From assembly GCA_000474255.1 (NCBI GenBank), contig BATO01000033.1, positions 1 to 58,312 of the forward strand: a DNA stretch of 58,312 nucleotides. The letters are read 5' to 3'. Both the position numbers and the translations under genes were made by a program. Position 1 is the first letter of the stretch. Every line of letters starts with the position of its first letter. The stretch comes from Aquipseudomonas alcaligenes MRY13-0052 (GTDB lineage: Bacteria > Pseudomonadota > Gammaproteobacteria > Pseudomonadales > Pseudomonadaceae). This document shows positions 655 through 15,539 of this stretch, piece after piece. The notes under the pieces are model-generated. The model had not been told where the DNA came from and did not search any database. It saw only the letters and a list, made by a program, of their open reading frames with translations.

Positions 655-1689
655 TCAGGCCCCGAACAGCTGGCGCAGCGCGCTGGGGGAGAGCCCCGTC
701 CAGCGCCTGAGCGAGCGGCGGAAGTTGGTGCTGTCGTGGAAGTGCAGGTACGCCGCCACCTCGTCGTTGCCGTAGCCCTTGATGCGGTAGAGGTAGAGCG
801 CCACGTGCTTGCGCACCAGGTCACGCTGCTCCTGGTAGTGCGTGCCGTGCTTGGCCAGCTTGCGCTTGAAGGTGGCCGGGCTCATGGCGAAGGCCAGGGC
901 CGCGTCCTCCAGCACCGGCGCCTCGCGCACCCGCTCCAGCAGCCAGCCGTAGAGCCGGTCCAGCAGGCTGGCGCGATGGCCCAGCGCCGCCAGCTGGCGC
1001 GCGCATTCCTGGCGTGCCACCTGGCCGGCGGTCTGCGACGCCTCCGGCAGCGCCCGGGTCAGCCAGGCGCGCGGCACTTGCATGGCGTCCACGTGCTGGT
1101 CGAAGCGCACCTCCTCCCCCAGGTGCACCCAGTACTGCTCGATGCAGCGCGGCTGGGCATGGGCGAAGTGGTAGCGCCACGGCAGCCGCTCCCCGCCCAG
1201 GCGCCGGCACAGCGCCGCCACCGCCGTCATGCTCGCCTCCAGCAGGAAGCGCCGGTGTTCCCCCGCCCCGCAGGCGTCCACCCAGTACAGCCAGGCGTCC
1301 TGCTCGTCCAGCACCAGCCGGGGCGCCAGCAACGGCGTCAGCAGCGCGCGCTGGCGGATTAGCTGCCCCAGCGCATCCTGCAGGTGCTCGGCATGCAGCA
1401 GGGTGTGGCTGGCGGCGCCGTAGTGGCCGGGCAGCAGCCGCTGGCCGAAGAGAAAGGCCGTGTCATCGGCGGCCAGCAGACGCCGGGCATTGCCGATCAG
1501 CCCGAGGAACTGCTGCGGGCTGACCAGCTGCCCGCCGGCGAGGATGTCCTCGTAGAACAGGCCGGTGCCCCGCAGCAGGCGGTGGCTGTCGATCCCCCGC
1601 GAGAGCGCCAGGTCGATCAGCACCGCCGGCTGGCCGTGGGCCGGGATGAAGCGGCTGTCGCACTCGTACCAGTCACCCCTGATGGTCAT
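655..1689 (-). CDS. AraC-family transcriptional regulator with arabinose-binding-like N-terminal domain
   Basis: 344-residue cytoplasmic regulator. The N-terminal two thirds (about residues 15-210) match the layout of the Arabinose_bd family seen in OruR/ArgR-like and other proteobacterial AraC regulators. The C-terminal about 100 residues are a double helix-turn-helix, with the second HTH visible as DEVAAYLHFHDSTNFRRSLR and the usual ending RWTGLSPSALRQLF. The start is supported by GAGGTG just upstream, which overlaps the stop of the preceding GGDEF gene. The 8-bp gap indicates co-transcription, GGDEF gene first. The ligand is unknown. The gene converges on the fimbrial gene, five bases away, so it might govern adhesion genes, but nothing in the sequence shows this. 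Confidence 0.85.
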   Translation of the reverse strand: MTIRGDWYECDSRFIPAHGQPAVLIDLALSRGIDSHRLLRGTGLFYEDILAGGQLVSPQQFLGLIGNARRLLAADDTAFLFGQRLLPGHYGAASHTLLHAEHLQDALGQLIRQRALLTPLLAPRLVLDEQDAWLYWVDACGAGEHRRFLLEASMTAVAALCRRLGGERLPWRYHFAHAQPRCIEQYWVHLGEEVRFDQHVDAMQVPRAWLTRALPEASQTAGQVARQECARQLAALGHRASLLDRLYGWLLERVREAPVLEDAALAFAMSPATFKRKLAKHGTHYQEQRDLVRKHVALYLYRIKGYGNDEVAAYLHFHDSTNFRRSLRRWTGLSPSALRQLFGA

Positions 1690-1697
1690 CGCGCACC

Positions 1698-2615
1698 TCA
1701 GGCACTGTGGGCCAGGCGCGGCGAGCGGGCCTTCGCCAGGGCCAGGTTGAGCCGTTGCAGCAGCGTCTCGGGGCTCTCGTCCAGGGCCATCGCCACCGCC
1801 GTGCTGGCGCGCAGTTGCAGGCGCTCGCCGTGCTGGCGGGTGCGGTGGGCGAAGTGCATCACCGCCTCGCCCAGCTCCGTGGCCAGCTGGTGCGCCTGGC
1901 GCTCGCCGGTGTTCGGCAGCAGCACCACGAAGCGGTCGCCGGCCAGGCGGCAGAGCAGGTCCTGGCGGCGCAGGTTGAGCAGCAGCAACTGGGTCAGCGC
2001 CAGCAGCAGGTGGTCGCCCTCGGCATGGCCGAAGCGGTCGTTGACCTGGCTGAAATCATCGATGTCGAGGATCACCAGCGACAGCGGCTGGCCGTTCGCG
2101 GCGGCCTCGCCCAGGCCCAGCTCCAGCTGGCGGCGCAGGTAGTCGGCGTCGCCCAGCGGGGTGAGCGTGTCGAACTGGCGGTGCTCGCGGAACAGCCGCT
2201 CGCGCTTCTCCATCTGCGCGCTGATGGCCAGCTGCTCGCGGTGCCAGTGGTAGATGCCCAGGGTCAGCAGCACCAGGCCGATGGGCATCGGCACCGACTC
2301 CAGCCAGTGGTCCCAGTGCACCGTGTCGGGCATGCGGATGAACTCATCGAGGCTGTCGATCCACCAGGAGAAGAACACCCCCGCCAGCCCCAGCACCAGC
2401 AGGTTGGTCACCCGCCCGGCGGGCCGGCTTTTCAGCACCAGGCCGATCCACACCAGCGCCAGCAGCGCCGAGCCGCCCTCGCCGAGGATGTCCAGCCAGA
2501 CCCACTCCGACGCCGCCTTCAGATCGCCCACCGCCAGGTGCAGCAGCAAACCGATATTGGCCGCCAGGAACAGCGCGGTGAGCTTGAGGCGATGCAGCTT
2601 CAGCAGGGAGGTCAT
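1698..2615 (-). CDS. Membrane protein with degenerate GGDEF domain (AGDRF)
   Basis: 305 residues. Residues 1-145 contain about four hydrophobic segments, so the protein sits in the inner membrane; the GGDEF domain follows in the cytoplasm. The active-site loop reads AGDRF (codons 1929-1943) instead of GG(D/E)EF. The first Gly and the catalytic acidic residue are therefore replaced and diguanylate cyclase activity is unlikely. An inhibitory-site motif RRQD stands exactly five residues before the loop, as in c-di-GMP-binding I-sites, so the domain could act as a c-di-GMP or nucleotide sensor. It is the first gene of a two-gene unit with the AraC regulator downstream. The family is certain; loss of catalysis is inferred from the motif. 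Confidence 0.85.
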   Translation of the reverse strand: MTSLLKLHRLKLTALFLAANIGLLLHLAVGDLKAASEWVWLDILGEGGSALLALVWIGLVLKSRPAGRVTNLLVLGLAGVFFSWWIDSLDEFIRMPDTVHWDHWLESVPMPIGLVLLTLGIYHWHREQLAISAQMEKRERLFREHRQFDTLTPLGDADYLRRQLELGLGEAAANGQPLSLVILDIDDFSQVNDRFGHAEGDHLLLALTQLLLLNLRRQDLLCRLAGDRFVVLLPNTGERQAHQLATELGEAVMHFAHRTRQHGERLQLRASTAVAMALDESPETLLQRLNLALAKARSPRLAHSA

Positions 2616-2749
2616 GGGCAGGTCCGGCGGGTTAGACCGGGCCAGCAGAGCAGATGATTGTGACGGCGAGGTTGCAGCGCCGGAGCGGGGTGGGAGGGTC
2701 GGATCGGCTCAGGGCACATGGGCAGATTTTCAGGTGCCCGGGTCGCATT

Positions 2750-2936: not shown

Positions 2937-2954
2937 CTGTCACAGAAGCGTCAT
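2937..2954 (+). promoter_or_regulatory. Putative PhoB box upstream of the receptor gene
   Basis: CTGTCAC-AGAA-GCGTCAT matches the direct-repeat PhoB box (CTGTCAT-N4-CTGTCAT) at 11 of 14 positions with correct spacing, 75 bp before the receptor start at 3030. The downstream genes (phytase, PhoX) have phosphate-acquisition functions, which supports the call. No convincing -10 hexamer is obvious; CCTAGC near 2965 is a weak candidate. Confidence 0.65.
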
Positions 2955-3029
2955 CCGTGCTGCCTAGCGTCCGCTCCCAAGTTGCCGGGTCATTTGCTCG
3001 GCCTGGATTCCATCCTGGGGAGAGCATTC

Positions 3030-5558
3030 ATGTACAAGCGCAGCACCGCCGCCCGGCTTGCGGGCTTCACCTTCAGCGCACTGACCCTGGCCGTGGCCAG
3101 CGTTGCCTGGGCTGCCGACGAGGGCGCGGCCGGCGCCACCGAGCACGTCGAAGTGGTCGGCCAGGCCGCCAGCATCGACAAGGCCCTGAAAGAGCAGCGC
3201 GCCTCCGACAGCGTTGAAAGCGTGGTGCATGCCGACGGCGTCGCCCAGTTGCCGGACCAGAACGCCGCCGAAGCGGTGCAGCGCCTGCCCGGCGTCTCGG
3301 TGGAGCGCGACCAGGGCGAAGGCCGCTTCGTCAGCGTGCGCGGCCTGGGCCCGGACCTGAACAGCGTCACCATCAACGGCACCCTGGTGCCGGCCCCGGA
3401 AAGCGACCGCCGCGCCGTGGCCCTGGATGTGCTGCCCGCCGAGCTGGTGCAGTCGCTCACCGTGATCAAGACCCTCACCCCGGACATGGACGCCAACTCC
3501 CTCGGCGGCACCGTCGACGTGGAGAGCCTCTCCGCCTTCGACCACGAGGGCCTGTTCTACACCGGCAGCACCGAGGCCAGCTACGACGAGAACACCGACA
3601 AGACCAGCCCCAAGTTCTCCGGCGCCATCAGCGACCGCTTCAGCCTCGGCGACGGCATCGACAACTTCGGCGTGGCCGCCGCCCTGAGCTGGCAGGAGCG
3701 CAAGTTCGGCTCCGACAACGTCGAGACCGGCGGCGCCTGGGACTTCGAAGACGGCGCCCGCCTGGAGGAGCTGGAGCAGCGCGACTATGCCATCACCCGC
3801 GAGCGCGCCGGCGGCGGCCTCAACTTCGACTACAAGCCCGACGACGTTTCCAGCTACTACCTGCGCACCCTCTACAGCCGCTACAAGGACAGCGAGACGC
3901 GCAACGCCGCCGGCATCGAATTCGATGACGCGCGCCTGCCGGGCGAAACCGGTGACGGCGAGGGTTACCGCGAGCTGAAGGACCGCGAGGAAACCCAGGA
4001 GATCCAGTCCTACGTCTTCGGCGGCGAACGCATGATGGGCCTCTGGACCCTGAGCGGGCAGGCTGGCTACAGCCAATCCAGCGAAGACAGCCCCGGCCAC
4101 ATCGCCGGTGCCACCTTCGAAGGCATCCGCGACTTCACCGGCACCGGCTTCGACGACAGCAAGAAGCCGCGCCTGAACGTCGAGAACGGCTTCTACGACC
4201 CGGCCAACTTCGCCCTCGACCAGGTCGACTGGGAAAAGCAGAACACCGAGGACACCGAGAAGAACATCCGCCTGGACCTCGCCCGCGACTACGACCTCTC
4301 CGGCTACGCCGCCCAGGCCAAGTTCGGCGGCAAGCTCAGCCGCCGCGACAAGACCAACGACCTGGAAGCCTGGACCTACGAGGACCTGGATAACTTCTTC
4401 AGCGACGAACAGCTCAACCTCGGCCAGTTCCAGAAGGGCAACGTGCACTACACCCTCGACCGCTTCGGCCCCGGCATCAGCGCCAGCGCCATCAAGGGCC
4501 TGCTCGGCCAGCTCAACGCCGCCGACTTCTACAACGAGGAAGAGTCGCGGGTGAACGACTTCGACATGAGCGAAGACATCAACGCCGCCTACCTCATGAA
4601 CACCCTGGACGTGGATGATTGGCGCTTCATCGCCGGCATGCGCTACGAGGGCACCGAGTTCGAAGCCAAGGGCACCGGCATCCGCGATGGCGACTACGAG
4701 AGCATCGAGCGCAAGCGCGACTACCACCACTGGCTGCCCGGCCTGCACGCGCGCTACCAGATCGACAAGGACACCCAGCTGCGCGCCGCCTGGACCAAGT
4801 CCGTGGTGCGCCCGACCTTCGGCCAACTGGCCCCGGGCTTCGTCATCGACGGCGACGAAGCCAGCTTCGGCAACCCCGACCTGTCGCCGCTGGAGTCGAC
4901 CAACTACGACTTCGGCATCGAGCACTACCTGGGCCGCGCCGGGGTGGTGTCGGCCTTCGTCTTCTACAAGGACATCCAGAACTTCGTCTACAACACCGAC
5001 CTGGCCGGCACCGGCGACTGGGCGACCTTCGACGAAGCCAACACCTTCGCCAACGGCGACAGCGCCAAGCTCTACGGCCTGGAGCTGGCCTACTCGCAGA
5101 AGTTCGACTGGCTGCCCGCCCCCTGGAACGGCCTGCTGCTGGGCGCCAACGCCACCTTCAGCCGCTCCGACGCCAGCATCGAGGGTTTCGACCAGGCCAG
5201 CGGCCGCACCCTCAAGCGCGACATCGACCTGCCCAACCAGTCCGACACCGTCGGCAACCTGATGCTGGGCTGGGAGAACGACAAACTCAGCCTGCGCCTC
5301 TCGGCCAACTACAAGTCCGACTACCTGTTCGAAGTGGCCCCGGTGGGCGACCGCCAGCACGACCTGCACGTGGACGCGCAGACCTTCGTCGACTTCAGCG
5401 CCCGCTACTTCCTGACGAAGGAGCTGCAGCTTTCCTTCGAGGCGCAGAACCTCACCGACGAGAGCTACTACGTCTACACCGGCAGCCGCAGCTACAACGC
5501 CCAGTACGAGGAATACGGCCCGACCTACACCCTCGGCCTGACCTTCACCCACTTCTGA
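3030..5558 (+). CDS. TonB-dependent outer-membrane receptor (phosphate-regulon type)
   Basis: 842 residues from ATG 3030, chosen because it is preceded by GGGGAGAG and begins with a clean Sec signal peptide (MYKRSTAARL... cleaved near AWA-ADE); an upstream in-frame ATG at 2982 would add 16 residues before the signal. A TonB-box-like HVEVVGQ follows, then the plug domain (about residues 55-165: LPDQNAAEAVQRLPGVSVER, FVSVRGLGPDLN, VTINGT, SLGGTVDVES). A 22-strand type barrel follows, ending in Phe (GLTFTHF). The plug wording is typical of the Caulobacter-type TonB-receptor family. The gene is first in a cluster with a phytase, a TolQR/TonB motor and PhoX, downstream of a PhoB-like box, so the substrate is probably a phosphorylated compound such as an inositol phosphate. 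That substrate is inference. Confidence 0.9.
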   Translation: MYKRSTAARLAGFTFSALTLAVASVAWAADEGAAGATEHVEVVGQAASIDKALKEQRASDSVESVVHADGVAQLPDQNAAEAVQRLPGVSVERDQGEGRFVSVRGLGPDLNSVTINGTLVPAPESDRRAVALDVLPAELVQSLTVIKTLTPDMDANSLGGTVDVESLSAFDHEGLFYTGSTEASYDENTDKTSPKFSGAISDRFSLGDGIDNFGVAAALSWQERKFGSDNVETGGAWDFEDGARLEELEQRDYAITRERAGGGLNFDYKPDDVSSYYLRTLYSRYKDSETRNAAGIEFDDARLPGETGDGEGYRELKDREETQEIQSYVFGGERMMGLWTLSGQAGYSQSSEDSPGHIAGATFEGIRDFTGTGFDDSKKPRLNVENGFYDPANFALDQVDWEKQNTEDTEKNIRLDLARDYDLSGYAAQAKFGGKLSRRDKTNDLEAWTYEDLDNFFSDEQLNLGQFQKGNVHYTLDRFGPGISASAIKGLLGQLNAADFYNEEESRVNDFDMSEDINAAYLMNTLDVDDWRFIAGMRYEGTEFEAKGTGIRDGDYESIERKRDYHHWLPGLHARYQIDKDTQLRAAWTKSVVRPTFGQLAPGFVIDGDEASFGNPDLSPLESTNYDFGIEHYLGRAGVVSAFVFYKDIQNFVYNTDLAGTGDWATFDEANTFANGDSAKLYGLELAYSQKFDWLPAPWNGLLLGANATFSRSDASIEGFDQASGRTLKRDIDLPNQSDTVGNLMLGWENDKLSLRLSANYKSDYLFEVAPVGDRQHDLHVDAQTFVDFSARYFLTKELQLSFEAQNLTDESYYVYTGSRSYNAQYEEYGPTYTLGLTFTHF

Positions 5559-5563
5559 TCGCC

Positions 5564-5587
5564 GCGCCCTCCCACCGGGGAGGGCGC
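5564..5587 (+). other. Intergenic hairpin between receptor and phytase genes
   Basis: GCGCCCTCCC and GGGAGGGCGC form a perfect 10-bp stem with a 4-base loop, a few bases after the receptor stop. There is no following T run, so it looks like an mRNA processing or 3'-stabilising element that could set different levels of the receptor and phytase rather than a simple terminator. Confidence 0.55.
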
Positions 5588-5613
5588 TCCTCCGCATCGC
5601 CTGGAACCGCCCG

Positions 5614-7542
5614 ATGACCCACACCCGCACCCGCAATCCCCTGCTGCTCGCTGCCCTGCTCGGCCTGGCCGCCTGCCAGCCGCAGCCGGCCGCCGAAGCC
5701 CAGGCCCCGCAACTGGCCCTCAGCCCCTGGGGCGCCTCGGCCAAGGTCAAGGCCGAAGACCTGCGCCAGCTGCCCGGCTCCGCCATGCGCCTGGCCGCCA
5801 GCGAGCGTAATGGCCTGCTCCTGCTGGACGGCGAAGGCCAGGAGCTGGCGCGCCTGCCCGGCTCCTTCTCCAGCCTCGACCTGCGCAGCGCCGGCCCCAA
5901 GGGCCTGATCGCCGCCAGCCTCGACAACGCCACCCAGCAGGCCACCCTGGTGAGCCTGGATACCGACACCCATCGCTGGGGCCGGCCGCTGCAACTGCCG
6001 GCCCGTGACTACGCCGTCGCCGGGCTCTGCCTGTACCGCGACGACGCCCGCAACCTCTACCTGTTCCTGGTGGGCGAAGACGGCCACGGCGAGCAGTGGC
6101 TGGTGGGTGCCGGTGAGCGCCTCAACGCCGAGGCCCGCCACGTGCGCGGCCTGGCCCTGCCGCCGGCCGCCGAGTACTGCCAGGTGGACGATGCCGCCAA
6201 CCGCCTGTTCGTCAACGAAGAGAACGTCGGCCTCTGGGCCTACCCGGCCCACCCGGAAGCCGACAGCGCCCGCGTGCCGGTGGACCTGGTCGCGCCCTTC
6301 GGCGGCCTGGCGAAAAGCGCCGGTGCCATGGCCGTGGTCCCCGGCGGCCTGTTGGCGCTGGACCCTGCCGCCGCCCGTCTGCACCTCTACCAGCAGCAGG
6401 GCGTGACCTGGAACGCGGTGGCCAGCCTGCCGCTCCCCGGCCTGGAAGAGCCCGAGCGCATCGCCGTCGCCACCAGTGCCCAGGGCACCGACCTGCTGGT
6501 GCAGGACGACGCCAGCGGGCGCCTGTACCAGGGCCGCCTGGACTGGCAGGCGCAGCCCGTGGCCCTGCCGCCCGTGCTGCCCAGCGTCGCCGCCCTGCGC
6601 CAGAGCGAGCCGGTGGGCCGCCAGGGCGACGCGGCGGACGACCCGGCCATCTGGGTCAACCCCAACGACCCGGCCGCCAGCCGCGTGCTCGGCACTAACA
6701 AGAAGCAGGGCCTGCTGGTCTACGGCCTCGACGGCCAACTGCTGCAGGAGCTGCCGGTGGGCCGCCTGAACAACGTCGACGTGCGCCCCGGCTTTGCCCT
6801 CGGCGGCCAGCGGGTCGACCTGGCGGTGGCCAGCAACCGCGACACCAACAGCCTCAGCCTGTTCGCCATCGACCGCGCCACGGGCGAGGTGAAGCCGGCC
6901 GGCGAGGTGCGCACCCCGCTCAAGGAGATCTACGGCATCTGCCTGTTCCAGCCGGCCTCCGGCGAGCTCTATGCCTTCGCCAACGGCAAGGACGGGCGCT
7001 TCCTGCAGTACCGCCTGGACGGCGCCAGCGGTGAAGCGAGCGGGCAGCTGGTGCGCGAGTTCCGCGTCGAGAGCCAGCCCGAGGGTTGCGTCGCCGACGA
7101 CCAGCGCCAGCGCCTGTTCATCGGTGAGGAAGACGTCGACGTCTGGGCCCTGGACGCCCGCGCCGACGCCCCCGCCGAGCTGCACTCGGTGATGCAGGTG
7201 GGCGAGACGTTGCACGCCGACGTCGAGGGCCTGGGCCTGTACCAGAGCGACGCCCGCGACTACCTGGTGATCTCCAGCCAGGGCAACGACAGCTACGTGG
7301 TACTCGACGCCGAGCCGCCCTTCGCCCTGCGCGGTGCCTTCCGCGTCGGCCTCAACGCCGCCGCCGGCATCGACGGCGCCTCGGAGACTGACGGCCTGGA
7401 AGTCACCTCCGCCAACCTCGGCGGCCCCTGGAACCAGGGAATGCTGGTGGTGCAGGACGGCCGCAAGCGCATGCCCGAGCAGACCCAGAACTTCAAGTTC
7501 GTGCCCTGGGCCGAGGTGGCCCGGACCCTGGGCCTGCACTGA
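5614..7542 (+). CDS. Two-domain beta-propeller phytase, lipoprotein
   Basis: 642-residue 3-phytase-type enzyme expected to release phosphate from myo-inositol hexakisphosphate with calcium. The N-terminus carries a lipoprotein signal (LLLAALLGLAAC, lipobox LAAC), so the enzyme is membrane-anchored. The C-terminal half (about residues 325-640) contains the beta-propeller phytase hallmark DAADDPAIWVNP, then GTNKKQGLLVYGLDG, RLNNVDVRPGF and EGCVADD. The N-terminal half (about 30-320) is a second, diverged propeller: CQVDDAANRLFVNEENVGLW parallels CVADDQRQRLFIGEEDVDVW in the C-terminal half, but the DAADDPA motif is missing. Dual-domain phytases with an incomplete N-terminal domain are known. The gene follows the receptor by 55 bp and precedes a Pho box. 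Confidence 0.9.
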   Translation: MTHTRTRNPLLLAALLGLAACQPQPAAEAQAPQLALSPWGASAKVKAEDLRQLPGSAMRLAASERNGLLLLDGEGQELARLPGSFSSLDLRSAGPKGLIAASLDNATQQATLVSLDTDTHRWGRPLQLPARDYAVAGLCLYRDDARNLYLFLVGEDGHGEQWLVGAGERLNAEARHVRGLALPPAAEYCQVDDAANRLFVNEENVGLWAYPAHPEADSARVPVDLVAPFGGLAKSAGAMAVVPGGLLALDPAAARLHLYQQQGVTWNAVASLPLPGLEEPERIAVATSAQGTDLLVQDDASGRLYQGRLDWQAQPVALPPVLPSVAALRQSEPVGRQGDAADDPAIWVNPNDPAASRVLGTNKKQGLLVYGLDGQLLQELPVGRLNNVDVRPGFALGGQRVDLAVASNRDTNSLSLFAIDRATGEVKPAGEVRTPLKEIYGICLFQPASGELYAFANGKDGRFLQYRLDGASGEASGQLVREFRVESQPEGCVADDQRQRLFIGEEDVDVWALDARADAPAELHSVMQVGETLHADVEGLGLYQSDARDYLVISSQGNDSYVVLDAEPPFALRGAFRVGLNAAAGIDGASETDGLEVTSANLGGPWNQGMLVVQDGRKRMPEQTQNFKFVPWAEVARTLGLH

Positions 7543-7543
7543 G

Positions 7544-7561
7544 CTGTCATCAACCCGTCAT
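7544..7561 (+). promoter_or_regulatory. PhoB box upstream of the TolQR/TonB/PhoX genes
   Basis: CTGTCAT-CAAC-CCGTCAT matches the PhoB direct repeat at 13 of 14 positions with the canonical 4-base spacer. It begins just after the phytase stop codon and lies about 54 bp before the next start at 7615. It implies a separate PhoB-activated promoter for the motor and phosphatase genes. Confidence 0.8.
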
Positions 7562-7614
7562 CGCCGCGTAATCGAATAGGGCCCTGCGGGGCCCGGCAAC
7601 ACGAGGAACCAACC

Positions 7615-8316
7615 ATGTACGCAACACTGGAACAGATGACCGTCTGGGGCCTGATCAGCGACGCCAGCCTGCTGGTGAAAGGGGTGATGGCGATCCTGCT
7701 GTTCGCCTCCCTGTTCAGCTGGTACCTGATCGTCCAGCGCGGTGCGCTGCTGGCGCGCGTCGAGCGGCAGGCCAAGGCCTTCCAGGCGCGCTTCCGTGGC
7801 ACCGTCGACCTCACCCAGCTGCAGCGCCGCGACGACGCGGACGAGGACGCCGCCCTGGAACGCATCTTCCTGGCCGGCTACCAGGAGTTTGCCCAACTGC
7901 GCCGCGAGCCGGGCATCGCCCCGGAGATGGTGGTGGACGGCGTCGAGCGCGCCCTTTACGTTGCCATCGCCGAGCAGGAAGAACGCCTGGAGAAGGGCCT
8001 CACCTTCCTCGCCACCGTCGGTTCGGTCAGCCCCTACATCGGCCTGTTCGGCACCGTGTGGGGGATCATGAATTCCTTCATCGGCCTGTCCCAGGTGCAG
8101 CAGGCGACCCTCTCCACCGTCGCCCCGGGCATCGCCGAAGCCCTGATCGCCACCGCCATCGGCCTGTTCGCCGCCATCCCCGCAGTGATCGCCTATAACC
8201 GCTTCTCGGCCCGCGCCCAGGGCCTGGTGGCGCGCTACTACGCCTTCGGCAACGAACTGCAGGGCCGCCTGCAACGCCGCCTGGCCGGCGCCAACCCCGT
8301 CGCCGCCGCAGCCTGA
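7615..8316 (+). CDS. tolQ: TolQ/ExbB-type proton-channel subunit
   Basis: 233-residue inner-membrane protein with three membrane segments (about residues 15-38, 135-158 and 168-195) and the MotA/TolQ/ExbB domain. The N-terminal [15 protein letters not shown] and the core [20 protein letters not shown] and [20 protein letters not shown] are much closer to my memory of Pseudomonas TolQ than of ExbB. With the TolR-like partner it should form a proton-driven motor that energises the TonB-type protein encoded next. The setting is not the tol-pal locus, so this is a paralogue devoted to the phosphate genes. The start is preceded by ACGAGGAACC. The pal/ybgC neighbours of a true tol locus are absent. 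Confidence 0.9.
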
Positions 8317-8324
8317 GGTGCAGC

Positions 8325-8771
8325 ATGCTCGTCCGTCCCCAGCGCAAGCACGGCCCCAAGGCCGAAATGAACGTGGTGCCCTACATCGACGTGATGCTGG
8401 TGCTGCTGGTGATCTTCATGGTCACCGCGCCGATGCTCACCCAGGGCGTGAAGATCGAACTGCCCAAGGTGGCCAGCGAGGCGCTGCCCCGTGACAGCCA
8501 GCAGCGCATCCTCACCCTCTCGGTGAAGGCCGACGGCGGCTACTACTGGAACCTGGGCACGGAGCTGGACACCGAAAGCCAGACCGACAGCGCCGTGGCC
8601 CTGGAGGAGATGACCGCCAAGGTGGGCGCGCTGATCGCCGAGCGCGGCGACACCCAGGTGTACATCCGCGCCGACCAGGACGCCGGCTACGGCAAGGTGG
8701 TGGCCGCCATGGCCGCGCTGCAGCAGGGCGGGGTGGCCAACCTGGGGCTGATCACCGAGGCGCCGCAATGA
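8325..8771 (+). CDS. tolR: TolR/ExbD-type motor subunit
   Basis: 148 residues. A short cytoplasmic N-terminus is followed by one membrane helix containing the conserved proton-carrying Asp (NVVPYIDVMLVLLVIFMVTA) and a periplasmic domain (about 45-148) ending GVANLGLITEAPQ. The wording (MLTQGVKIELPKVASEALP, QTDSAVALEEMTAKV) is TolR-like rather than ExbD-like. It starts 8 bp after the tolQ-like gene and its last bases overlap the next start (ATGA). The partner is the TolQ-like channel. Paralogue status is inferred from genomic context. Confidence 0.9.
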   Translation: MLVRPQRKHGPKAEMNVVPYIDVMLVLLVIFMVTAPMLTQGVKIELPKVASEALPRDSQQRILTLSVKADGGYYWNLGTELDTESQTDSAVALEEMTAKVGALIAERGDTQVYIRADQDAGYGKVVAAMAALQQGGVANLGLITEAPQ

Positions 8772-9583
8772 GCGTGATGGTCATGAGCGATGCGCCTCTC
8801 TCCAGTCTGTCGCTGCCCAGCGCCCGTACCTGGCGCAACGCCTTCGCCGCCGGCTGCGCCCTGGCCCTGCACCTGGGCGTGCTGGCGCTGCTGATGGCCG
8901 GCTGGGCCCCCGAGCGCCCCGCCGAACCGGCCCAGCGGGTGCTCACCACCCAACTGATCAGCCTGCCTGCGCCAGCCCCCGAACCGGTTCCCGCGCCGGT
9001 GCAGCCGGCTGTCGCGGAAGCCGCCCCGGTGGAACCGCTGCCGACGCCCGTGGCGCCGGTGCCGCCGCAGGTGGACCCGCGAATCGAGCAGCGCAAGCTG
9101 GAGCAGGCCGCCCTGGCCCGCAAGCGCGTGGAAGAACAGAAGCGCCAGGAGCAGGTGCAGCAGGAAACCCGGCGCCGCGAGCAGCAGCGCCTGGAAGCCG
9201 AGCGCGTCGCCGCGGCTGCCGAGCAACAGCGCCAGCTCGATCTTGCCCGCCAGGCGGAACAGCAGCGCCTGGCCGCCGAGCGTGCCCGCCAGGCCGAAGC
9301 CGCCGCCAACAGCCGCCAGTACCTGCCCATCGCCAAGGAGGCGCCGGACTACCCCCAGCGCGCCCTCGACAAGGGCATCCAGGGCGACTGCACGGTGGAG
9401 TACCGGGTGAATCCCCAGGGCCGCGTCGAGGACCCGCAGGTGGTGGGCGACTGTCACCCGCTGTTCATCCGCCCGTCACTGGTCGCGGCGCAGACTTTCC
9501 GCTACCAGCCGCGCCTCGAAAACGGCCAGCCCGTAGCCGTGCCAGGCGTGCGCAACACCTTCCACTACCGCATCGAACGCTGA
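8768..9583 (+). CDS. tonB: TonB-family energy transducer
   Basis: 271 residues starting in a 4-bp ATGA overlap with the tolR-like gene. There is a short cytoplasmic N-terminus, one membrane anchor (about residues 24-43, ALALHLGVLALLMAGW), a Pro-rich stretch (about 58-100) and a Gln/Glu/Arg-rich, probably helical stalk (about 100-175) reminiscent of TolA. The C-terminal TonB domain (about 180-271) includes YPQRALDKGIQGDCTVEYRV and FRYQPRLENGQPVAVPGV. The C-terminal domain would contact the TonB box of the receptor at 3030-5558. Alternative starts at Met4 or Met6 are possible. The mix of TolA-like stalk, TolQR-like partners and a TonB end is noteworthy. Confidence 0.88.
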   Translation: MSVMVMSDAPLSSLSLPSARTWRNAFAAGCALALHLGVLALLMAGWAPERPAEPAQRVLTTQLISLPAPAPEPVPAPVQPAVAEAAPVEPLPTPVAPVPPQVDPRIEQRKLEQAALARKRVEEQKRQEQVQQETRRREQQRLEAERVAAAAEQQRQLDLARQAEQQRLAAERARQAEAAANSRQYLPIAKEAPDYPQRALDKGIQGDCTVEYRVNPQGRVEDPQVVGDCHPLFIRPSLVAAQTFRYQPRLENGQPVAVPGVRNTFHYRIER

Positions 9584-9620
9584 GCGCGGAGCGCCGGCGC
9601 ATAACCAGAAGAGAACCGTG

Positions 9621-11579
9621 ATGACCCAGGATTTCGACGCCTTCCACGCCGCACTCGCCGCCCATGACGACGTGGCCATCAACCCCAGCGGCAACCGCAG
9701 CCTGGACCGGATGGTGGACGCCGGCCGCCGTAACGTCCTCAAGGGCGGCCTGGCCATGGCCGCCCTGGGCTTCTTCGGCGGCGGCATCAGCGCCTGCCGC
9801 GCGGTGGCCGACGACGGCCTGCTGGGCTTCAAGGGCGTGCCCCAGCAGTTCGATGCCAAGCTCGACAAGGTGATAGTCGCCGACGGCTACAGCGCCACGC
9901 CGTTCTTCTCCTGGGGCGATGCGGTGCTGGCCGATGCGCCGGCCTTCAAGGGCGATGCCAGCGAAACCTGGGAAGACCAGCTCAAGCAGGCCGGCGACAA
10001 CCACGATGGCATGCACTTCTTCCCCTTCCCGGACGCGCCCAACGACCACGGCCTGCTGGTGATCAACCACGAGTACATCAACCCCACGCTGCACAGCGCC
10101 GGCATCGTCTTCGTCGAGGGCAAGCGCAAGGCGGAAGACGTGAAGAAGGAGCAGGCGGCCCACGGCGTCAGCGTCATCGAGGTGAAGAAGGACGGCGACG
10201 GCCACTGGCAGCGGGTCGCCGGCTCGCGCTACAACCGCCGCATCTCCACCCTCACGCCCATGCAGCTCACCGGCCCGCTGGCTGGCAACGCCGCCATGAA
10301 GACCGCCTCCGACCCCAGCGGCCTGGAGGTGATCGGCACCCTCAACAACTGCTCCATGGGCGTGACCCCCTGGGGCACCTACCTCGCCTGCGAGGAGAAC
10401 TGGCACAACTACTTCATCAACCGCGACCCGGCCGACTACGCCCAGCGCGTGTCCCACAAGCGCTACGGCATCGCCAAGGAAGGGGTGAGCAAGAACTACG
10501 GCTGGGAGACCGCCGACGCCCGCTTCGACGCCACGCCCTACCGCGACCAGCCCCACGACGGCCATGTGCAGGAGCCCAACCGCTTCGGCTGGGTGGTGGA
10601 GATCGACCCCTTCGACCCCACCAGCAAGCCGAAGAAGCGCACCGCCGTCGGCCGCTTCTGCCGCGAGTGCTCTACCCTGTCCCTCGGCACGGACGGGCGC
10701 ATGGCCTACTACTACGGCGACGACACCAAGGGCGAGTACATCTACAAGTTCGTGCCCAGCGGCCGCTTCGACGCCGCCAACCCCAAGGCCGCCCGCGACC
10801 TGCTGGACGAGGGCACCCTCTACGTTGCCCGTTTCGACGATGACGGCAAGGGCCAGTGGCTGGCCCTGGTGCACGGCCAGAACGGCCTCACCGCCGAGAA
10901 CGGCTTCGCCAGCCAGGCCGAGGTGCTGCTCAACGCCCGCGCCGCCGGCGACATACTCGGCGCAACGCCCATGGACCGCCCCGAGTGGGTGGCCGCGCAC
11001 CCGGAGACCCGCGAGGTCTACGTCACCCTCACCAATAACGACGATCGGGGCAGCAAGAAACCGGTGAACGCCGCCAACCCGCGCCCGCACAACCTGCACG
11101 GGCAGATCCTGCGCTGGAACGAAGCGGGCGGCGATCCCACCGCCACCACGTTCCAGTGGGAGATCTTCCTCCTCGCCGGCGAACCCCAGGGCGCCAAGGA
11201 CGACAAGGGCCAGGCGGTGCCGGCCAACCTGATCGGCACCATCAACGGCGACGCCTTCTCCTCCCCGGACGGCCTGGCCTTCGACCCCGCCGGCCGCCTG
11301 TGGATCGAGACCGATTTCGACGACATCGAGCCGGCCATGGCGCGCATCGGCTGCAACCAGCTGCTCTGCGCCGACCCCAGGACCCGTGAGGTGCGCCGCT
11401 TCCTCGTCGGCCCGCGCGGCTGCGAACTCACCGGCATCACCTTCACCCCGGACGGCCGCAGCATGTGGGTCAACATCCAGCACCCCGGCATCAGCTACCC
11501 CGCCAGCGACGGCAAGAGTCGCCCGCGCTCCACCACCGTGCTCATCACCAAGAACGACGGCGGCGTGATCGGCAGTTGA
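9621..11579 (+). CDS. phoX: PhoX-family alkaline phosphatase, Tat-exported
   Basis: 652-residue DUF839/PhoX phosphatase that removes phosphate from phosphomonoesters. The N-terminus has a Tat signal: GRRNVLKGG followed by a hydrophobic stretch (LAMAALGFFGGGISA), so it is exported folded with its metal cofactors. PhoX-typical segments are visible: NNCSMGVTPWGTYLACEENW, VEIDPFDP, a TLSLGTDGRMAYYYGDD-like segment, and DGLAFDPAGRLWIETD. ATG 9621 is preferred over GTG 9618 because of spacing to GAAGAG. It is last in the cluster, 37 bp after tonB, and probably transcribed from the PhoB box at 7544. Known PhoX enzymes use iron and calcium; I infer the same here. Confidence 0.92.
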   Translation: MTQDFDAFHAALAAHDDVAINPSGNRSLDRMVDAGRRNVLKGGLAMAALGFFGGGISACRAVADDGLLGFKGVPQQFDAKLDKVIVADGYSATPFFSWGDAVLADAPAFKGDASETWEDQLKQAGDNHDGMHFFPFPDAPNDHGLLVINHEYINPTLHSAGIVFVEGKRKAEDVKKEQAAHGVSVIEVKKDGDGHWQRVAGSRYNRRISTLTPMQLTGPLAGNAAMKTASDPSGLEVIGTLNNCSMGVTPWGTYLACEENWHNYFINRDPADYAQRVSHKRYGIAKEGVSKNYGWETADARFDATPYRDQPHDGHVQEPNRFGWVVEIDPFDPTSKPKKRTAVGRFCRECSTLSLGTDGRMAYYYGDDTKGEYIYKFVPSGRFDAANPKAARDLLDEGTLYVARFDDDGKGQWLALVHGQNGLTAENGFASQAEVLLNARAAGDILGATPMDRPEWVAAHPETREVYVTLTNNDDRGSKKPVNAANPRPHNLHGQILRWNEAGGDPTATTFQWEIFLLAGEPQGAKDDKGQAVPANLIGTINGDAFSSPDGLAFDPAGRLWIETDFDDIEPAMARIGCNQLLCADPRTREVRRFLVGPRGCELTGITFTPDGRSMWVNIQHPGISYPASDGKSRPRSTTVLITKNDGGVIGS

Positions 11580-11604
11580 TGCACGCGATGATGGACCGCT
11601 CTCT

Positions 11605-12144
11605 GTAGGTTGGCGCCGAGCGCAGCGAGGCCCAACGATGCGGACTCGACTCCGCGCGTTGGGCCTCGTACCTCGGCCCAACCTACGGGGTGCATGACGC
11701 CGGCTCTCGTAGGAGCGAGCTCTGCTCGCGAAGCTTGGCGACGCCGAGGTGGCGGGTTTCACCCGCCCTACAAGGGGCCCGGAACCTCCGATGCCGGGCC
11801 GCTCTCCGTAGGTTGGCGCCGAGCGCAGCGAGGCCCAACGATGTCGGGCTCGACTCCGCGCGTTGGGCCTCGTACCTCGGCCCAACCTACGGTGGTGCAC
11901 GATGCCGACCCTGTAGGAGCGAGCTCTGCTCGCGAACATCGGCGCCGCCAATGTGGCGGGTTTCACCCGCCCTACAAGGGGCCGGGGAACCTCCGGTGAT
12001 GGACCGCTCTCCGTAGGTTGGCGTCGAGCGCAGCGAGGCCCAACGATGCGGGCTCGACTCCGCGCGTTGGGCCTCGTACCTCGGCCCAACCTACGGGCGT
12101 GCATGACACAGGCTCTCGTAGGTCGGGTGAAACCCGACGCTCCG
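11605..12144. repeat. Tandem array of about 204-bp composite palindromic units
   Basis: Three copies of an 82-83-bp imperfect palindrome (11605-11686, 11808-11890, 12013-12094) each start GTAGGTTGGCG(C/T)CGAGCGC and end CTCGGCCCAACCTAC, giving a period of 203-205 bp. Between them are two near-identical spacers of about 120 bp with further hairpins: GGAGCGAGCTCTGCTCGCGAA and GGCGGGTTTCACCCGCC. After copy three a shorter variant hairpin GTCGGGTGAAACCCGAC runs to the next gene. No open frame here looks like a protein. The array explains the 565-bp gene-free space after phoX. It resembles REP/BIME clusters but is unusually large. Confidence 0.8.
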
Positions 12145-12723
12145 CTATGGCTTCGGCGGCCGCCTGTGTACGCCGGCCAGCACCTTGTCGGCGAAGGCGG
12201 CGGGGCCGCGTACTTCGAGGTAATGCACCTGCTCGCCATCGGGGATGAAGAACACCTGGTAGGGCTTGCCGTCCTGGCTGGTGCGCCAGGCGAAGAGCTC
12301 GATGCCGTCGATGCGGTAGGGCGTGAGGCTGGCCTTGTCGCCGCACAGGTCCATGGCCTGGCGCATGGCGAACACCCATTCGCGGGCTTCGGGCGTGGCG
12401 GCGCTGTCATCGCCGAACAGCAGGCGCACCTGTTGCGCCGGGGTGCCCAGGCCGGCATTGCCCAGCTCCTGCTGCGTCATCGGATGGTGGGCGAGGCTGT
12501 GGCCGTCGGGGTAGCGGGCGATCAGCAGATCACCGCTGTGCAGCAGCAGCTCGGGCTGCTCCACCAGGCCCAGTTGCAGTTTCTCCTTGCCCGCCAGCAC
12601 CAGCGGCAGGCCCGTCGCCTTGGCGGCGGTCAGTTCCTGGTGCGGGGCAGGGCGATAGTCGCAGCCCTGGGCCAGGGCGTTCGAGCCAATCACCAGCAGG
12701 GCCAGCGGCAGCAGGCGTTTCAT
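12145..12723 (-). CDS. Secreted protein of unknown function
   Basis: 192 residues from the ATG at 12723, chosen because it gives a compact Sec signal peptide (MKRLLPLALLVIGSNALA then QGCDYRP); ATG 12732 adds three residues. I do not recognise a family. The mature part has two Cys (positions near 23 and 128), a stretch ITLARYPDG-like (LLIARYPDGHSLAHHP), and a C-terminal FIPDGEQVHYLEVRGP suggesting a compact beta-rich periplasmic domain. It stands alone between the repeat array and regulator-gene debris. No operon partner is apparent. Coding status is supported by the signal peptide and consistent codon use. Confidence 0.7.
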   Translation of the reverse strand: MKRLLPLALLVIGSNALAQGCDYRPAPHQELTAAKATGLPLVLAGKEKLQLGLVEQPELLLHSGDLLIARYPDGHSLAHHPMTQQELGNAGLGTPAQQVRLLFGDDSAATPEAREWVFAMRQAMDLCGDKASLTPYRIDGIELFAWRTSQDGKPYQVFFIPDGEQVHYLEVRGPAAFADKVLAGVHRRPPKP

Positions 12724-12799
12724 CGTCGTCATCCATGCGTCTGTGAGGCGGCGAGCTTAGCAGCGCAGCGGAACCCCGGGTGCGCCACCGTTCTCGTGC

Positions 12800-12911: not shown

Positions 12912-13098
12912 TCAACGGCATGGCGCCAGGGGGGCGAGGCGGCGCCTGGCGACCAGCGGTATGGCCTGAAACCCGCACAAGGATTGATACAGGGAGGGTT
13001 GGCGCTGGTGGCGCCGTGCCATACTTTCGCCAAGTCGGCTTTGTATGGGCGATCCCCTGGAAGCTGTTTACCTGAGGGTGCGGGAGGTGAGGTCAGGG

Positions 13099-14298
13099 AT
13101 GGATAAGGTCCAGCTGTTGCTCAGCCACTACGCCGAGAGCCGTTACACGCGGCAGCTCAACAAAGGCTTTGGATGGCTGCGTTTCGAGCCCGAACTGGAG
13201 GCGGAGTACCGCATCTCCAATTACCGGGCCTTTCGCACCACGCGAATCGGCGCCCTCTGCACGCTGCTGCTGGCGCTGCTGTTCTTCCTCGGCTTCGACA
13301 TCTTCTACGCCCTGCGCCACTACGATGCGACGCTGACCCCGGCGATCTTCGGCATGCGCCTGATCGCCCTGGCCGGGATCATGCTTTCGGCGACCATGGT
13401 GCTCTACGGCAACGATCGCTCGGCCGGCGCCTTCTGGGTGCCCTGCACCGTGTTCTTCATCGGCACCACGACGCTGGTCAGCAACATCCTCTACATGCAG
13501 GTGCTGGAGCAGGTCGGGATGCCCTTCAACATCGACGGCATGATCCTGGTGCTGATCGCCATCTTCTTTCCCGTGGGCTACAGCTACTGGGGGTCGGTGG
13601 TGTGCGCGCTGGTCACCTTCATCACCATGCTGGTGGCGATCCCGGCCTTTCTGCCGGCGGGGTATCTCGACGACTTCGTCGCGCTGTCCATCTACCCGCT
13701 GGTCGCCATGTTCTTCGCCGGCATGTCGCGCTACTTCCAGGAGTCGGCCACGCGGCGCCAGTTCCTCACCCGCGCGGCGCTCAAGGAGCTGGCCGACAGC
13801 GACAGCCTGACCGGCCTGTGCAACCGGCGCATGTTCGAGATCCTGCTGGATCGTTCCCTGCGTGAAAGCCAGCGCGAGCGCCATTGCCTGGGGCTGATGC
13901 TGGTGGATGTGGATTTCTTCAAACGCTACAACGACCTCTACGGCCACCCGGCCGGGGACGCGGTGCTCAAGGCGGTGGCCGAGGCCCTGCAGAGCACGCC
14001 CCGGCGCTCCCTGGACTTCGCCGCGAGGCTCGGTGGCGAGGAGTTCGCCCTGGTGTTCTGCGACCTGGTGCCGGTGTTCGCCGAGCGGGTGGCGGAGGAG
14101 GTGAGCCGGCGCATCGAGGGGCTGGCCATTCCCCACGAAGGCTCCAACATCGGCCCGGTGCTGACCGTCAGCGTCGGCATGGCCCTGAGCCAGCCTGGCG
14201 ACACCCGTGACAGCCTCTACAAGCGGGCGGACGAGGCGCTCTACACCTCGAAAGGGGGGGGCCGCAACCGAGCGACCCTGGCCGCCGAAGTGGGCTGA
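13099..14298 (+). CDS. Membrane-bound diguanylate cyclase (GGEEF)
   Basis: 399 residues from ATG 13099, preceded by GGGAGGTGAGG; an upstream in-frame ATG at 13045 has no such site. Residues about 55-225 form around six membrane helices without a recognised ligand domain. The C-terminal GGDEF domain (about 240-395) has the intact catalytic loop GGEEF (about residue 312) and an inhibitory site RSLD exactly five residues before it, plus LMLVDVDFFKRYND and GHPAGD. It should make c-di-GMP from two GTP, with product inhibition. Transcribed alone. The enzyme class is secure; the input signal is unknown. Confidence 0.9.
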   Translation: MDKVQLLLSHYAESRYTRQLNKGFGWLRFEPELEAEYRISNYRAFRTTRIGALCTLLLALLFFLGFDIFYALRHYDATLTPAIFGMRLIALAGIMLSATMVLYGNDRSAGAFWVPCTVFFIGTTTLVSNILYMQVLEQVGMPFNIDGMILVLIAIFFPVGYSYWGSVVCALVTFITMLVAIPAFLPAGYLDDFVALSIYPLVAMFFAGMSRYFQESATRRQFLTRAALKELADSDSLTGLCNRRMFEILLDRSLRESQRERHCLGLMLVDVDFFKRYNDLYGHPAGDAVLKAVAEALQSTPRRSLDFAARLGGEEFALVFCDLVPVFAERVAEEVSRRIEGLAIPHEGSNIGPVLTVSVGMALSQPGDTRDSLYKRADEALYTSKGGGRNRATLAAEVG

Positions 14299-14451
14299 GC
14301 CCACTCGGGTGATGTTTTTTTCATCCTTCCTTCACCGCGTTTTCACTCCTTCCCGGTCACTCTCGCCTCGCGCTGGGCAGACCGGGTCCGTGTCCGCGCA
14401 GAGGGTTGCATCCATCAGGCAGCCACATCCGTGCGGGCCCCGGGAGTCGTG

Positions 14452-15222
14452 ATGAATAAATTGCCCCAGATCACCCTGGCCTTCTGGATCATGAAGATCT
14501 GCGCCACCACCCTGGGCGAGACCGCCGGGGACCTGCTGTCGATGACCCTGGACGTTGGCTACGCCATCAGCTCGCTGATCCTCATCAGCGCCTTCTTCGC
14601 CACCCTGCTCACGCAGCTGGCGAGCAAGCGCTACAACCCGCTGGTGTACTGGGCGGTGATCCTCTCCACCAGCACCGCCGGCACCACCATGTCGGACTTC
14701 ATGGACCGCACCCTGGGCCTGGGCTATGCCACCGGCTCGGCGATCCTGGTGGGCATCCTGCTGTGCATCTTCGCGCTGTGGCGGGTCACCGAGGGGTCGC
14801 TGTCGGTGGACCGCATCCGTTCGCGGCGCGGCGAGCTGTTCTACTGGGGCGCGATCCTCTTCTCCAACACCCTGGGCACGGCGCTGGGCGACTTCCTCGC
14901 CGATGACTCCGGGCTCGGCTTCGCCGGTGGTGCCTTGCTGATCGGCGGTGCCCTGGCGCTGGTGGTGGCGGCCCATTACTTCACGCGGATCTCCACCGTG
15001 CTGCTGTTCTGGCTGGCCTTCGTGCTCACCCGGCCCTTCGGCGCGACCCTGGGCGACGTGCTGACCAAGACCCACGAGAAGGGCGGGCTGGACTTCGGCA
15101 CCGTCGGCTCCTCCCTGGTGCTCGGTGGCGTGCTGCTGGTGCTGGTGGTGTACGCGACCTGGGTGCAGCGCCAGCGCGCCGCCTACGCGGGGCTGACGCT
15201 GGTGCGCACGCCTCAGCGATAG
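14452..15222 (+). CDS. COG4705-type integral membrane protein with fourfold internal repeat
   Basis: 256 residues from ATG 14452 (CGGGAG upstream). About eight hydrophobic segments are organised as four repeats, each containing a variant of T-x-G-x-T-x-x-D: [56 protein letters not shown] and TRPFGATLGDVLTKTHEKGG. These conserved Thr/Gly/Asp loops probably face each other in the membrane. The family is known as uncharacterised membrane proteins; transport function is plausible but unproven. It overlaps the convergent DUF2388 gene by 10 bp at its end. Confidence 0.8.
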   Translation: MNKLPQITLAFWIMKICATTLGETAGDLLSMTLDVGYAISSLILISAFFATLLTQLASKRYNPLVYWAVILSTSTAGTTMSDFMDRTLGLGYATGSAILVGILLCIFALWRVTEGSLSVDRIRSRRGELFYWGAILFSNTLGTALGDFLADDSGLGFAGGALLIGGALALVVAAHYFTRISTVLLFWLAFVLTRPFGATLGDVLTKTHEKGGLDFGTVGSSLVLGGVLLVLVVYATWVQRQRAAYAGLTLVRTPQR

Positions 15223-15539
15223 GCCGAGGCGGCGAGGGCGCGGGCGAGGCTCATGTCGTCGGCGCTCGCCGTCGCCGGTTGTCGGTGCAGTTCCTGCAGG
15301 GTGCGCTCCAGCTGCGCGCCACGGATGCGCCCATCGCTGGCGACGAAGGCCATCGCATCGTCCCGCGCCTGGGCCTGGATGCCCGGCTGGCGCTCCTCCT
15401 GGCTGAGGTTGCTGGTGGTAGCGGGGGCGAAGGTGATGGCCGCGCTGCTGCTGAGCAGCCAGGAGCCGGAGCCTTCGTCGGCCAGCGCGGCGGCTGGCAG
15501 GGCCAGCAGCGCGAGGCAGAGCGGGAGTGTCGGGCGCAT
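15213..15539 (-). CDS. DUF2388 small periplasmic protein
   Basis: 108 residues with a Sec signal (MRPTLPLCLALLALPAAALA) and the DUF2388 pattern: SSAAITFAPATTSNLS, then ARDDAMAFVASDGRIRGAQLE. This family is common, often in several copies, in Pseudomonas; its function is unknown to me. The gene lies 8 bp after the Sel1 lipoprotein gene, so the two are probably one transcript. Confidence 0.8.
   Translation of the reverse strand: MRPTLPLCLALLALPAAALADEGSGSWLLSSSAAITFAPATTSNLSQEERQPGIQAQARDDAMAFVASDGRIRGAQLERTLQELHRQPATASADDMSLARALAASAYR

Follow-up and report, generated by a model that had tools for sequence, protein, structure and literature searches.

Phytate, the phosphorus store of plants, is a large pool of organic phosphorus in soil, and how pseudomonads switch on the phytases that they carry looks to be an open question. 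We address it at a phytase locus of Aquipseudomonas alcaligenes MRY13-0052, lying in a stretch of 58,312 nucleotides (BATO01000033.1; hereafter the window), one of the 237 contigs that make up a 6.88-Mb draft genome. An initial annotation had outlined six genes between 2937 and 11579, encoding a TonB-dependent receptor, a phytase, the two subunits of a TolQR-like motor, TonB and the alkaline phosphatase PhoX; gene calls and domain matches find all six present, contiguous and on the plus strand. What the outline left out is the most constant partner of these genes, a divergent operon (655–2615, minus strand) that encodes an AraC-family transcription regulator and a membrane protein with an altered GGDEF domain. 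We regard it as reasonably probable, from the sequence comparisons described below, that this is a locus for phytate uptake and hydrolysis with a dedicated dual switch, in which PhoB would respond to low phosphate and the AraC protein would act beside it, with a pseudo-cyclase as its membrane input. The cluster probably takes phosphate from phytate when phosphate is short.

The first gene of the divergent operon (1698–2615, minus strand) encodes the membrane protein, in which a helical N-terminal domain precedes a GGDEF domain with the signature AGDRF and a retained RxxD motif. The second (655–1689, minus strand) encodes the AraC regulator, with a PF12625 N-terminal domain and an HTH_18 domain. 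The window was compared with the best 80 of at least 548 related stretches, picked by similarity of the phytase, a choice that favours close relatives; seven of the 80 end within 3.2 kb of the phytase, before the upstream genes. The pair stands divergent from the receptor in 73 of the 73 loci that reach far enough upstream, namely 70 of 70 with at least 6.5 kb before the phytase and three shorter ones that carry it (L079, L083, L084). In all 73 the stop of one gene and the start of the other are between −16 and +11 nt apart. The same association is seen in whole genomes. In a survey of 298 Pseudomonadaceae genomes, with an E cut-off of 1e-40 and only the best candidates of each genome scored (up to seven), the phytase was found in 123, the GGDEF gene in 120 and the AraC gene in 121, all among the 123, while the 175 genomes without the phytase gave no match to either gene at E <= 1e-40. 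Two of the phytase genomes without a GGDEF match are cut short or incomplete: in G286 only about 270 nt of the phytase contig precede the receptor match, and G250 is 73% complete, with a contig end near the receptor. The trait is patchy: among 18 genomes from the window's genus it is present in four, of which two belong to the window's species, and this patchiness argues against shared descent alone, with events not tallied on a tree. We rejected the idea that the divergent operon is a chance neighbour, since it is found only in phytase genomes and at every eligible locus.

A different account would make this a plain phytate cluster of the Pho regulon under PhoB alone, the AraC and GGDEF genes being old neighbours that regulate attachment or motility and happen to share the intergenic region. 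We consider this unlikely. The absence of both genes from genomes without the phytase speaks against it, as does the fact that they stay with the receptor and phytase whereas three other neighbours in the window and the motor genes do not.

The loyalty of the pair extends to more distant relatives. A profile of the N-terminal membrane domain, which itself has no Pfam match, was searched against 321 genomes from the class and 398 from the phylum. Beyond the window's family it found 11 genomes, all of the same class, after exclusion of four marginal hits (G468, G407, G710, G771); of three stretches taken from the marginal hits, L123 and L124 have no match to any query, and in L125 the GGDEF query matches over 70 residues only. 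In these scans strong matches to the membrane domain were seen only at this kind of locus. An AraC homologue adjoins in 11 of the 11 distant stretches, and the phytase and the receptor are each present in 10. One of them (L115) has at 13979–15445, where the phytase would be expected, a metallophosphoesterase (PF00149) whose start is lipoprotein-like; it comes after the same set of AraC, GGDEF and receptor genes. The motor genes behave differently: of the 79 close loci that could be judged, 77 have ExbB, ExbD and TonB after the phytase, the exceptions being Endozoicomonas (L085) and Alcanivorax (L088), and no such set was found in the 11 distant stretches, which come from Gammaproteobacteria with the same regulator. 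PhoX is adjacent in only 23 of 75 eligible loci. A search for conservation of all six genes as a unit thus came out negative, and the view of the locus as a self-contained, complete six-gene pathway is supported neither by these counts nor by the finding that its motor is one of several. Because the distant stretches keep the regulator pair, receptor and phosphatase without ExbB-ExbD-TonB, and L115 swaps the phytase, the core looks like the AraC-GGDEF pair, the receptor and a phosphatase, with the energiser and PhoX as additions.

The region between the divergent operons holds a pair of repeats that are likely to be operators of the AraC protein. The footprint of this region (24 of 74 regions) shows two direct copies of GTCAnnTCAGCTCA. 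In the window copy A, GTCGGATCGGCTCA, lies at 2698–2711 and copy B, GTCCTATCAGCTCA, at 2869–2882, both on the plus strand and both candidate sites of the AraC regulator. A matrix was trained on 42 loci; 40 of these, and 25 of 34 others, contain two sites with scores of 10 or more, and shuffled sequences gave none. The 34 are related to the training set, and the 25 include the window, Methylophaga and one distant genome. The matrix gave 86 hits inside the 42 intergenic regions against 8 in the 886.7 kb outside them, and the presence of copies at both promoters, together with their rarity elsewhere in the loci, is a further point against control by PhoB alone. Copy A is usually 72–89 nt from the GGDEF start and the other copy usually 138–162 nt from that of the receptor; the spacing of the two copies varies from 88 to 802 nt, so each repeat seems to be tied to its own promoter. 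Between the copies in the window is a REP-like (repetitive extragenic palindromic) inverted repeat (2750–2856; arms of 50 nt, 82% complementary), which is probably an insertion and not part of the switch. Of the three occurrences of the pattern GTCNNNTCRGCTCA in the 6.88 Mb of the window's genome, two are at this locus, and over the four phytase genomes of the genus, one of which is the second genome of the window's species, 8 of the 10 hits fall at the locus. Genome-wide totals are background, without excess (10 against 12 for the reversed pattern in the four phytase genomes; 38, scattered, against 46 in the 14 without the phytase), and it is the paired placement at the locus that is notable.

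At two loci the GGDEF gene and the receptor are separated by a purple-acid-phosphatase-like gene that is oriented like the regulator operon (L054, 5692–7092, and L061, 5667–7115, both on the minus strand). The first has PF16656 and PF00149 domains and the second is assigned by likeness only. In some loci an inserted phosphatase gene parts copy A from the GGDEF gene. The gene of L054 and L061 suggests that the regulator operon can carry enzymes too.

The second input would be PhoB. Boxes were scored against CTGTCATnnnnCTGTCAT at 14 consensus positions, with shuffled sequences as control, and those previously proposed before the receptor and before the motor genes prove to be real and conserved in relatives far above the shuffled level. 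The box of the receptor-phytase promoter, CTGTCACAGAAGCGTCAT (2937–2954, plus strand), agrees at 11 of the 14 positions and is followed after 10 nt by a −10 element, TAGCGT (2965–2970, plus strand); a PhoB box and then a −10 element at such a spacing is the layout of PhoB-dependent promoters. Across the loci a box of at least 11/14 occurs between the GGDEF and receptor genes in 69 of 74 on either strand (2.6% in shuffled sequences) and faces the receptor in 68 of 74. Of the 72 loci whose forward box scores 10/14 or more, 70 have TAnnnT exactly 10 nt past the receptor box. On the other strand, a box of at least 11/14 faces the GGDEF/AraC operon in 41 of 74 loci (shuffled, 1.3%), and 37 of these 41 are within 90 nt of the GGDEF start. 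The motor-TonB-PhoX promoter has its own box, CTGTCATCAACCCGTCAT (7544–7561, plus strand), which agrees at 13 of 14 positions. Of 72 scored gaps before the motor genes, 45 have a box of at least 11/14 (shuffled, 0.07%) and 27 lack one, so this box is not universal, the count excluding seven loci in which the gap is at most 10 nt (L074–L077, L081, L083) or below the length of the box (L078). Boxes in the other two gaps were looked for as controls and rejected, with one in 75 scored receptor-phytase gaps (of 77) and none in the 17 TonB-PhoX gaps (of 22) that are long enough to score. Since the gap before PhoX lacks a box, PhoX is probably read together with the motor genes. In the Methylophaga-type loci (L074–L077, L083) exbB starts 9–10 nt past the phytase, which leaves no room for a second PhoB promoter, so that the motor genes of these loci are probably part of the receptor operon.

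The strong conservation of the boxes and −10 elements is what best favours a cluster run by PhoB alone, and phosphate and cyclic di-GMP (c-di-GMP) are reportedly linked in pseudomonads (RapA of P. fluorescens), which we also counted on that side. Measurements on related strains bear on PhoB control itself. In the excerpts of a proteomic study, PhoBR had no effect on the phytase of P. fluorescens SBW25 or P. stutzeri DSM4166, which argues against simple Pho control and hence against PhoB alone, and substrate induction was suggested (PMC5082522). The phytase gene of P. syringae, in the portion of another report, was induced 3.2-fold by bean leaf extract and not by apoplast fluid (PMC2803797). 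From the related species among the 80 loci we infer that these three phytases belong to the locus type described here. If so, a dual switch would reconcile the conserved PhoB boxes with the lack of a PhoBR response (PMC5082522) and with induction by leaf extract (PMC2803797), as far as these excerpts go.

The proteomic result also weighs against the dual switch, as do several of our own observations. The window's box facing the GGDEF/AraC operon (2660–2677, minus strand) is weak, with 9/14 positions, and by itself not above chance in the window. PhoB boxes are weaker in the distant loci, the best box reaching 12/14 or more in 5 of 11, scored without shuffles. Binding of the AraC protein to the repeats is proposed from their co-conservation and position, and 9 of the 34 non-training loci lack two sites scoring at least 10, among them Alcanivorax (L088), where both copies are weak, and several Stutzerimonas and P. 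putida-type loci, where copy A is weak or missing. In the distant loci two copies on the same strand are found in 8 of 11 only; L113 has one copy, L114 one and a weak copy on the opposite strand, and L120 none. One phytase genome (G034) is without the GGDEF gene and keeps the AraC gene and both repeats, so the GGDEF gene is not strictly required, though the same genome fits the AraC protein as the one that binds the repeats. Finally, the reading of the GGDEF protein as a pseudo-enzyme is drawn from one substituted residue and a lost lysine, and a distant member (L122) has lost RxxD.

All 74 members have AGDRF as the signature of the GGDEF domain; one further row (L080) was dropped from these counts as a different GGDEF protein. 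An arginine thus replaces the acidic residue at the fourth position, outside the GG[D/E]EF pattern, while the R and D of the RxxD inhibitory site, five residues before the signature, are kept in all 74. These positions of the GGDEF domain matter for catalysis, and RxxD for feedback. In an alignment with PleD, and in PleD numbering, all 74 have acidic residues opposite D327, D344 and E370, and 73 retain N335; the equivalent of E371 is the arginine, and that of K332 is replaced, in 74 of 74. The fourth position is arginine in 10 of the 11 distant members and cysteine in L120, and RxxD is kept in 10 of the 11. Were the protein an active diguanylate cyclase despite AGDRF, phosphate shortage would raise its level and that of c-di-GMP. 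Cells would then tend to attach to a phytate-rich surface, and the AraC protein would be a local activator. The retained acidic residues and asparagine, and a fold that matches cyclases, are in keeping with activity, but the fixed change at the fourth position, near and far, and the universal replacement of the lysine make it improbable in our judgement.

The preferred reading, in which the protein senses and does not synthesise, has precedents. Degenerate GGDEF proteins such as LapD and FimX have altered signatures and serve in sensing instead of synthesis. Both match the window protein weakly, with a common altered GGDEF fold; unlike them, it has no EAL match, has an unnamed membrane domain and is encoded together with an AraC regulator. 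Its predicted structure has four long helices and then the GGDEF fold (predicted local distance difference test score (pLDDT), 86.5; predicted template modelling score (pTM), 0.51), the arrangement of the domains being uncertain given the pTM. The 50 matches shown in a structure search with this model are all GGDEF-containing proteins, and none of them is a relative for the membrane domain. The model of the AraC protein (pLDDT 93.4) has CdpR (5chh) as its nearest fold in the PDB. It shares fold and domain order with the regulators CdpR and QhpR, but lies below the NCBIfam cut-offs.

In the mechanism that we propose, the receptor, powered by the local TolQR-like ExbBD-TonB motor, would bring inositol phosphates, probably as calcium phytate, into the periplasm, where the two-domain phytase would strip their phosphates. 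PhoX, where present, would finish the lower phosphoesters, and inorganic phosphate would enter by Pst. In the window, a separate PhoB promoter would drive production of the motor set and PhoX. A second condition would come from the AraC protein, with full expression needing both low phosphate and a cue. As no inner-membrane inositol-phosphate transporter was recognised among the genes of this locus, the cytoplasmic AraC protein would need a relay across the membrane, and the least certain step is that the pseudo-GGDEF protein provides it, passing on a periplasmic cue, binding of c-di-GMP or GTP, or both. Tentatively, and with more doubt than belief, we also suggest that the pair forms a new transmembrane switch at phytate and organophosphate loci of Gammaproteobacteria, in which a pseudo-diguanylate cyclase and an AraC protein would gate a PhoB-primed promoter that fires when low phosphate coincides with a sensed substrate or c-di-GMP state. 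The regulator pair, its repeats and the PhoB boxes would then offer a two-input switch that may explain how phytate clusters are turned on. They also point to a membrane sensor domain without a Pfam match and to a family of degenerate GGDEF proteins with a fixed altered signature.

The probable identity of the substrate is read from the receptor and the phytase. The receptor (3030–5558, plus strand) matches TIGR01782 with 641 bits and has a TonB-box-like EHVEVVG. The two-domain beta-propeller phytase (5614–7542, plus strand), whose best named matches are in Pseudomonas, scores over the PF02333 cut-off, with the domain in two stretches, and its C-terminal domain aligns over its length with the solved phytases 3amr and 1poo. 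The phytase signature DDPA[IVLF]W is present once per protein in 80 of 80 orthologues, and NN[VIA]DxR in 80 of 80; in the window these motifs are single and lie in the C-terminal domain. This domain content and these motifs, with the conserved PhoB boxes and −10 elements, support the earlier proposal of Pho control and an organophosphate or phytate function. It is less clear that the phytase is a lipoprotein. The window protein does have a lipobox (LAAC), as had been noted, but it may not be a general trait, and conservation of a lipoprotein form was not upheld, the pattern being found in only 32 of the 80 orthologues; in ten listed orthologues that do not match it, the N-termini look like Sec signal peptides. 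For these reasons the predicted location leans towards the periplasm over anchoring at the surface.

The imported compound might not be phytate: the receptor could take up a different organophosphate, a glycerophospho-compound or a metal-phosphate chelate, for example, on which the phytase-like enzyme then acts. The receptor family is broad, and the metallophosphoesterase that takes the place of the phytase in L115 and the extra purple-acid-phosphatase-like gene of L054 and L061 would suit such a substrate. The conservation of both phytase motifs counts against it, though the loci were chosen by phytase similarity, and so do the receptor-phytase pairs of other lineages; we think it unlikely to be the explanation.

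Such pairs have been described before. In the excerpts of PMC8115612 and PMC3400609, a TonB-dependent receptor adjoins a phytase in Flavobacterium (Fjoh_1367/1368) and in Citromicrobium JL354, and the Flavobacterium pair is induced by phosphate depletion; these excerpts make no mention of an energiser, PhoX or an AraC/GGDEF pair. PSPTO_3242 is placed by an excerpt of PMC3400609 in a receptor cluster with phytate among its substrates. Among six other gammaproteobacterial phytase contexts (L094–L099, of which L096 ends at a contig end) a receptor stands beside the phytase in four, and none has a match to the AraC/GGDEF pair. A phosphate-linked extra ExbBD-TonB set is known as well, exbB2-exbD2-tonB4 (PA0693-PA0695) of P. 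aeruginosa, called uncharacterised in the portion of PMC7035377 that describes it. It is likened to the present set by description and not by orthology, and differs in belonging to a locus under the control of PhoB and of VreI, a sigma factor, and in being placed with protein-secretion genes and an alkaline phosphatase (PMC7035377, same portion). In a P. aeruginosa strain, according to an excerpt of PMC4144306, a phytase gene and a diguanylate cyclase gene lie on separate contigs. The receptor-phytase pair and the phosphate-linked motor are thus known already, and the open-licence papers searched yielded nothing that links a phytase to an AraC/pseudo-GGDEF pair.

Two-domain phytases exist in Pseudomonas. 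These and the known Pseudomonas PhoX are the nearest known counterparts of the two enzymes, which are here set with a local TonB energiser and a regulator pair. The motor is encoded by an ExbB/TolQ-like proton-channel gene of the MotA/TolQ/ExbB type (7615–8316), an ExbD/TolR-like gene (8325–8771) and tonB (8768–9583), which has a TonB_C domain, all on the plus strand. The two motor subunits exceed the TIGR02796 (TolQ) and TIGR02801 (TolR) cut-offs respectively and stay under the cut-offs of the ExbB/ExbD models and the remaining TolQ/TolR models of NCBIfam; with MotA_ExbB, ExbD and TonB_C domains together in one operon, the set has the composition of a TonB system. Genome-wide there are 7 matches to TonB_C and 9 to MotA/ExbB, so the local motor is one of several. 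PhoX (9618–11579, plus strand), the optional member, has a GTG start, with an ATG at 9621 equally likely; it exceeds the PF05787 cut-off and aligns nearly end to end with the solved PhoX 3zwu, and no NCBIfam match was found at 1e-3.

Beyond the unit, the window ORFs (open reading frames) at 50–649, 12145–12732 and 14431–15219 have no match anywhere in the 80 loci. A second GGDEF protein, with an ordinary GGEEF signature, is encoded downstream (13045–14298); it has only two weak matches among the 80 loci (L080 and L087; 34–36%, other strand) and is therefore not part of the unit. Directly downstream of PhoX (11586–12122) a 104-nt repeat occurs three times, the copies being 60–100% alike and spaced by about 204 nt. 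In one comparison locus (L103, 2460–14160) only fragmentary matches were obtained for the GGDEF gene, receptor, phytase and PhoX, as though all four had been disrupted jointly, and the motor genes and TonB match over nearly their full length. In another, a Brenneria record and not Pseudomonas (L070), the locus from AraC to TonB is present at 51–70% identity, which suggests transfer as a unit.

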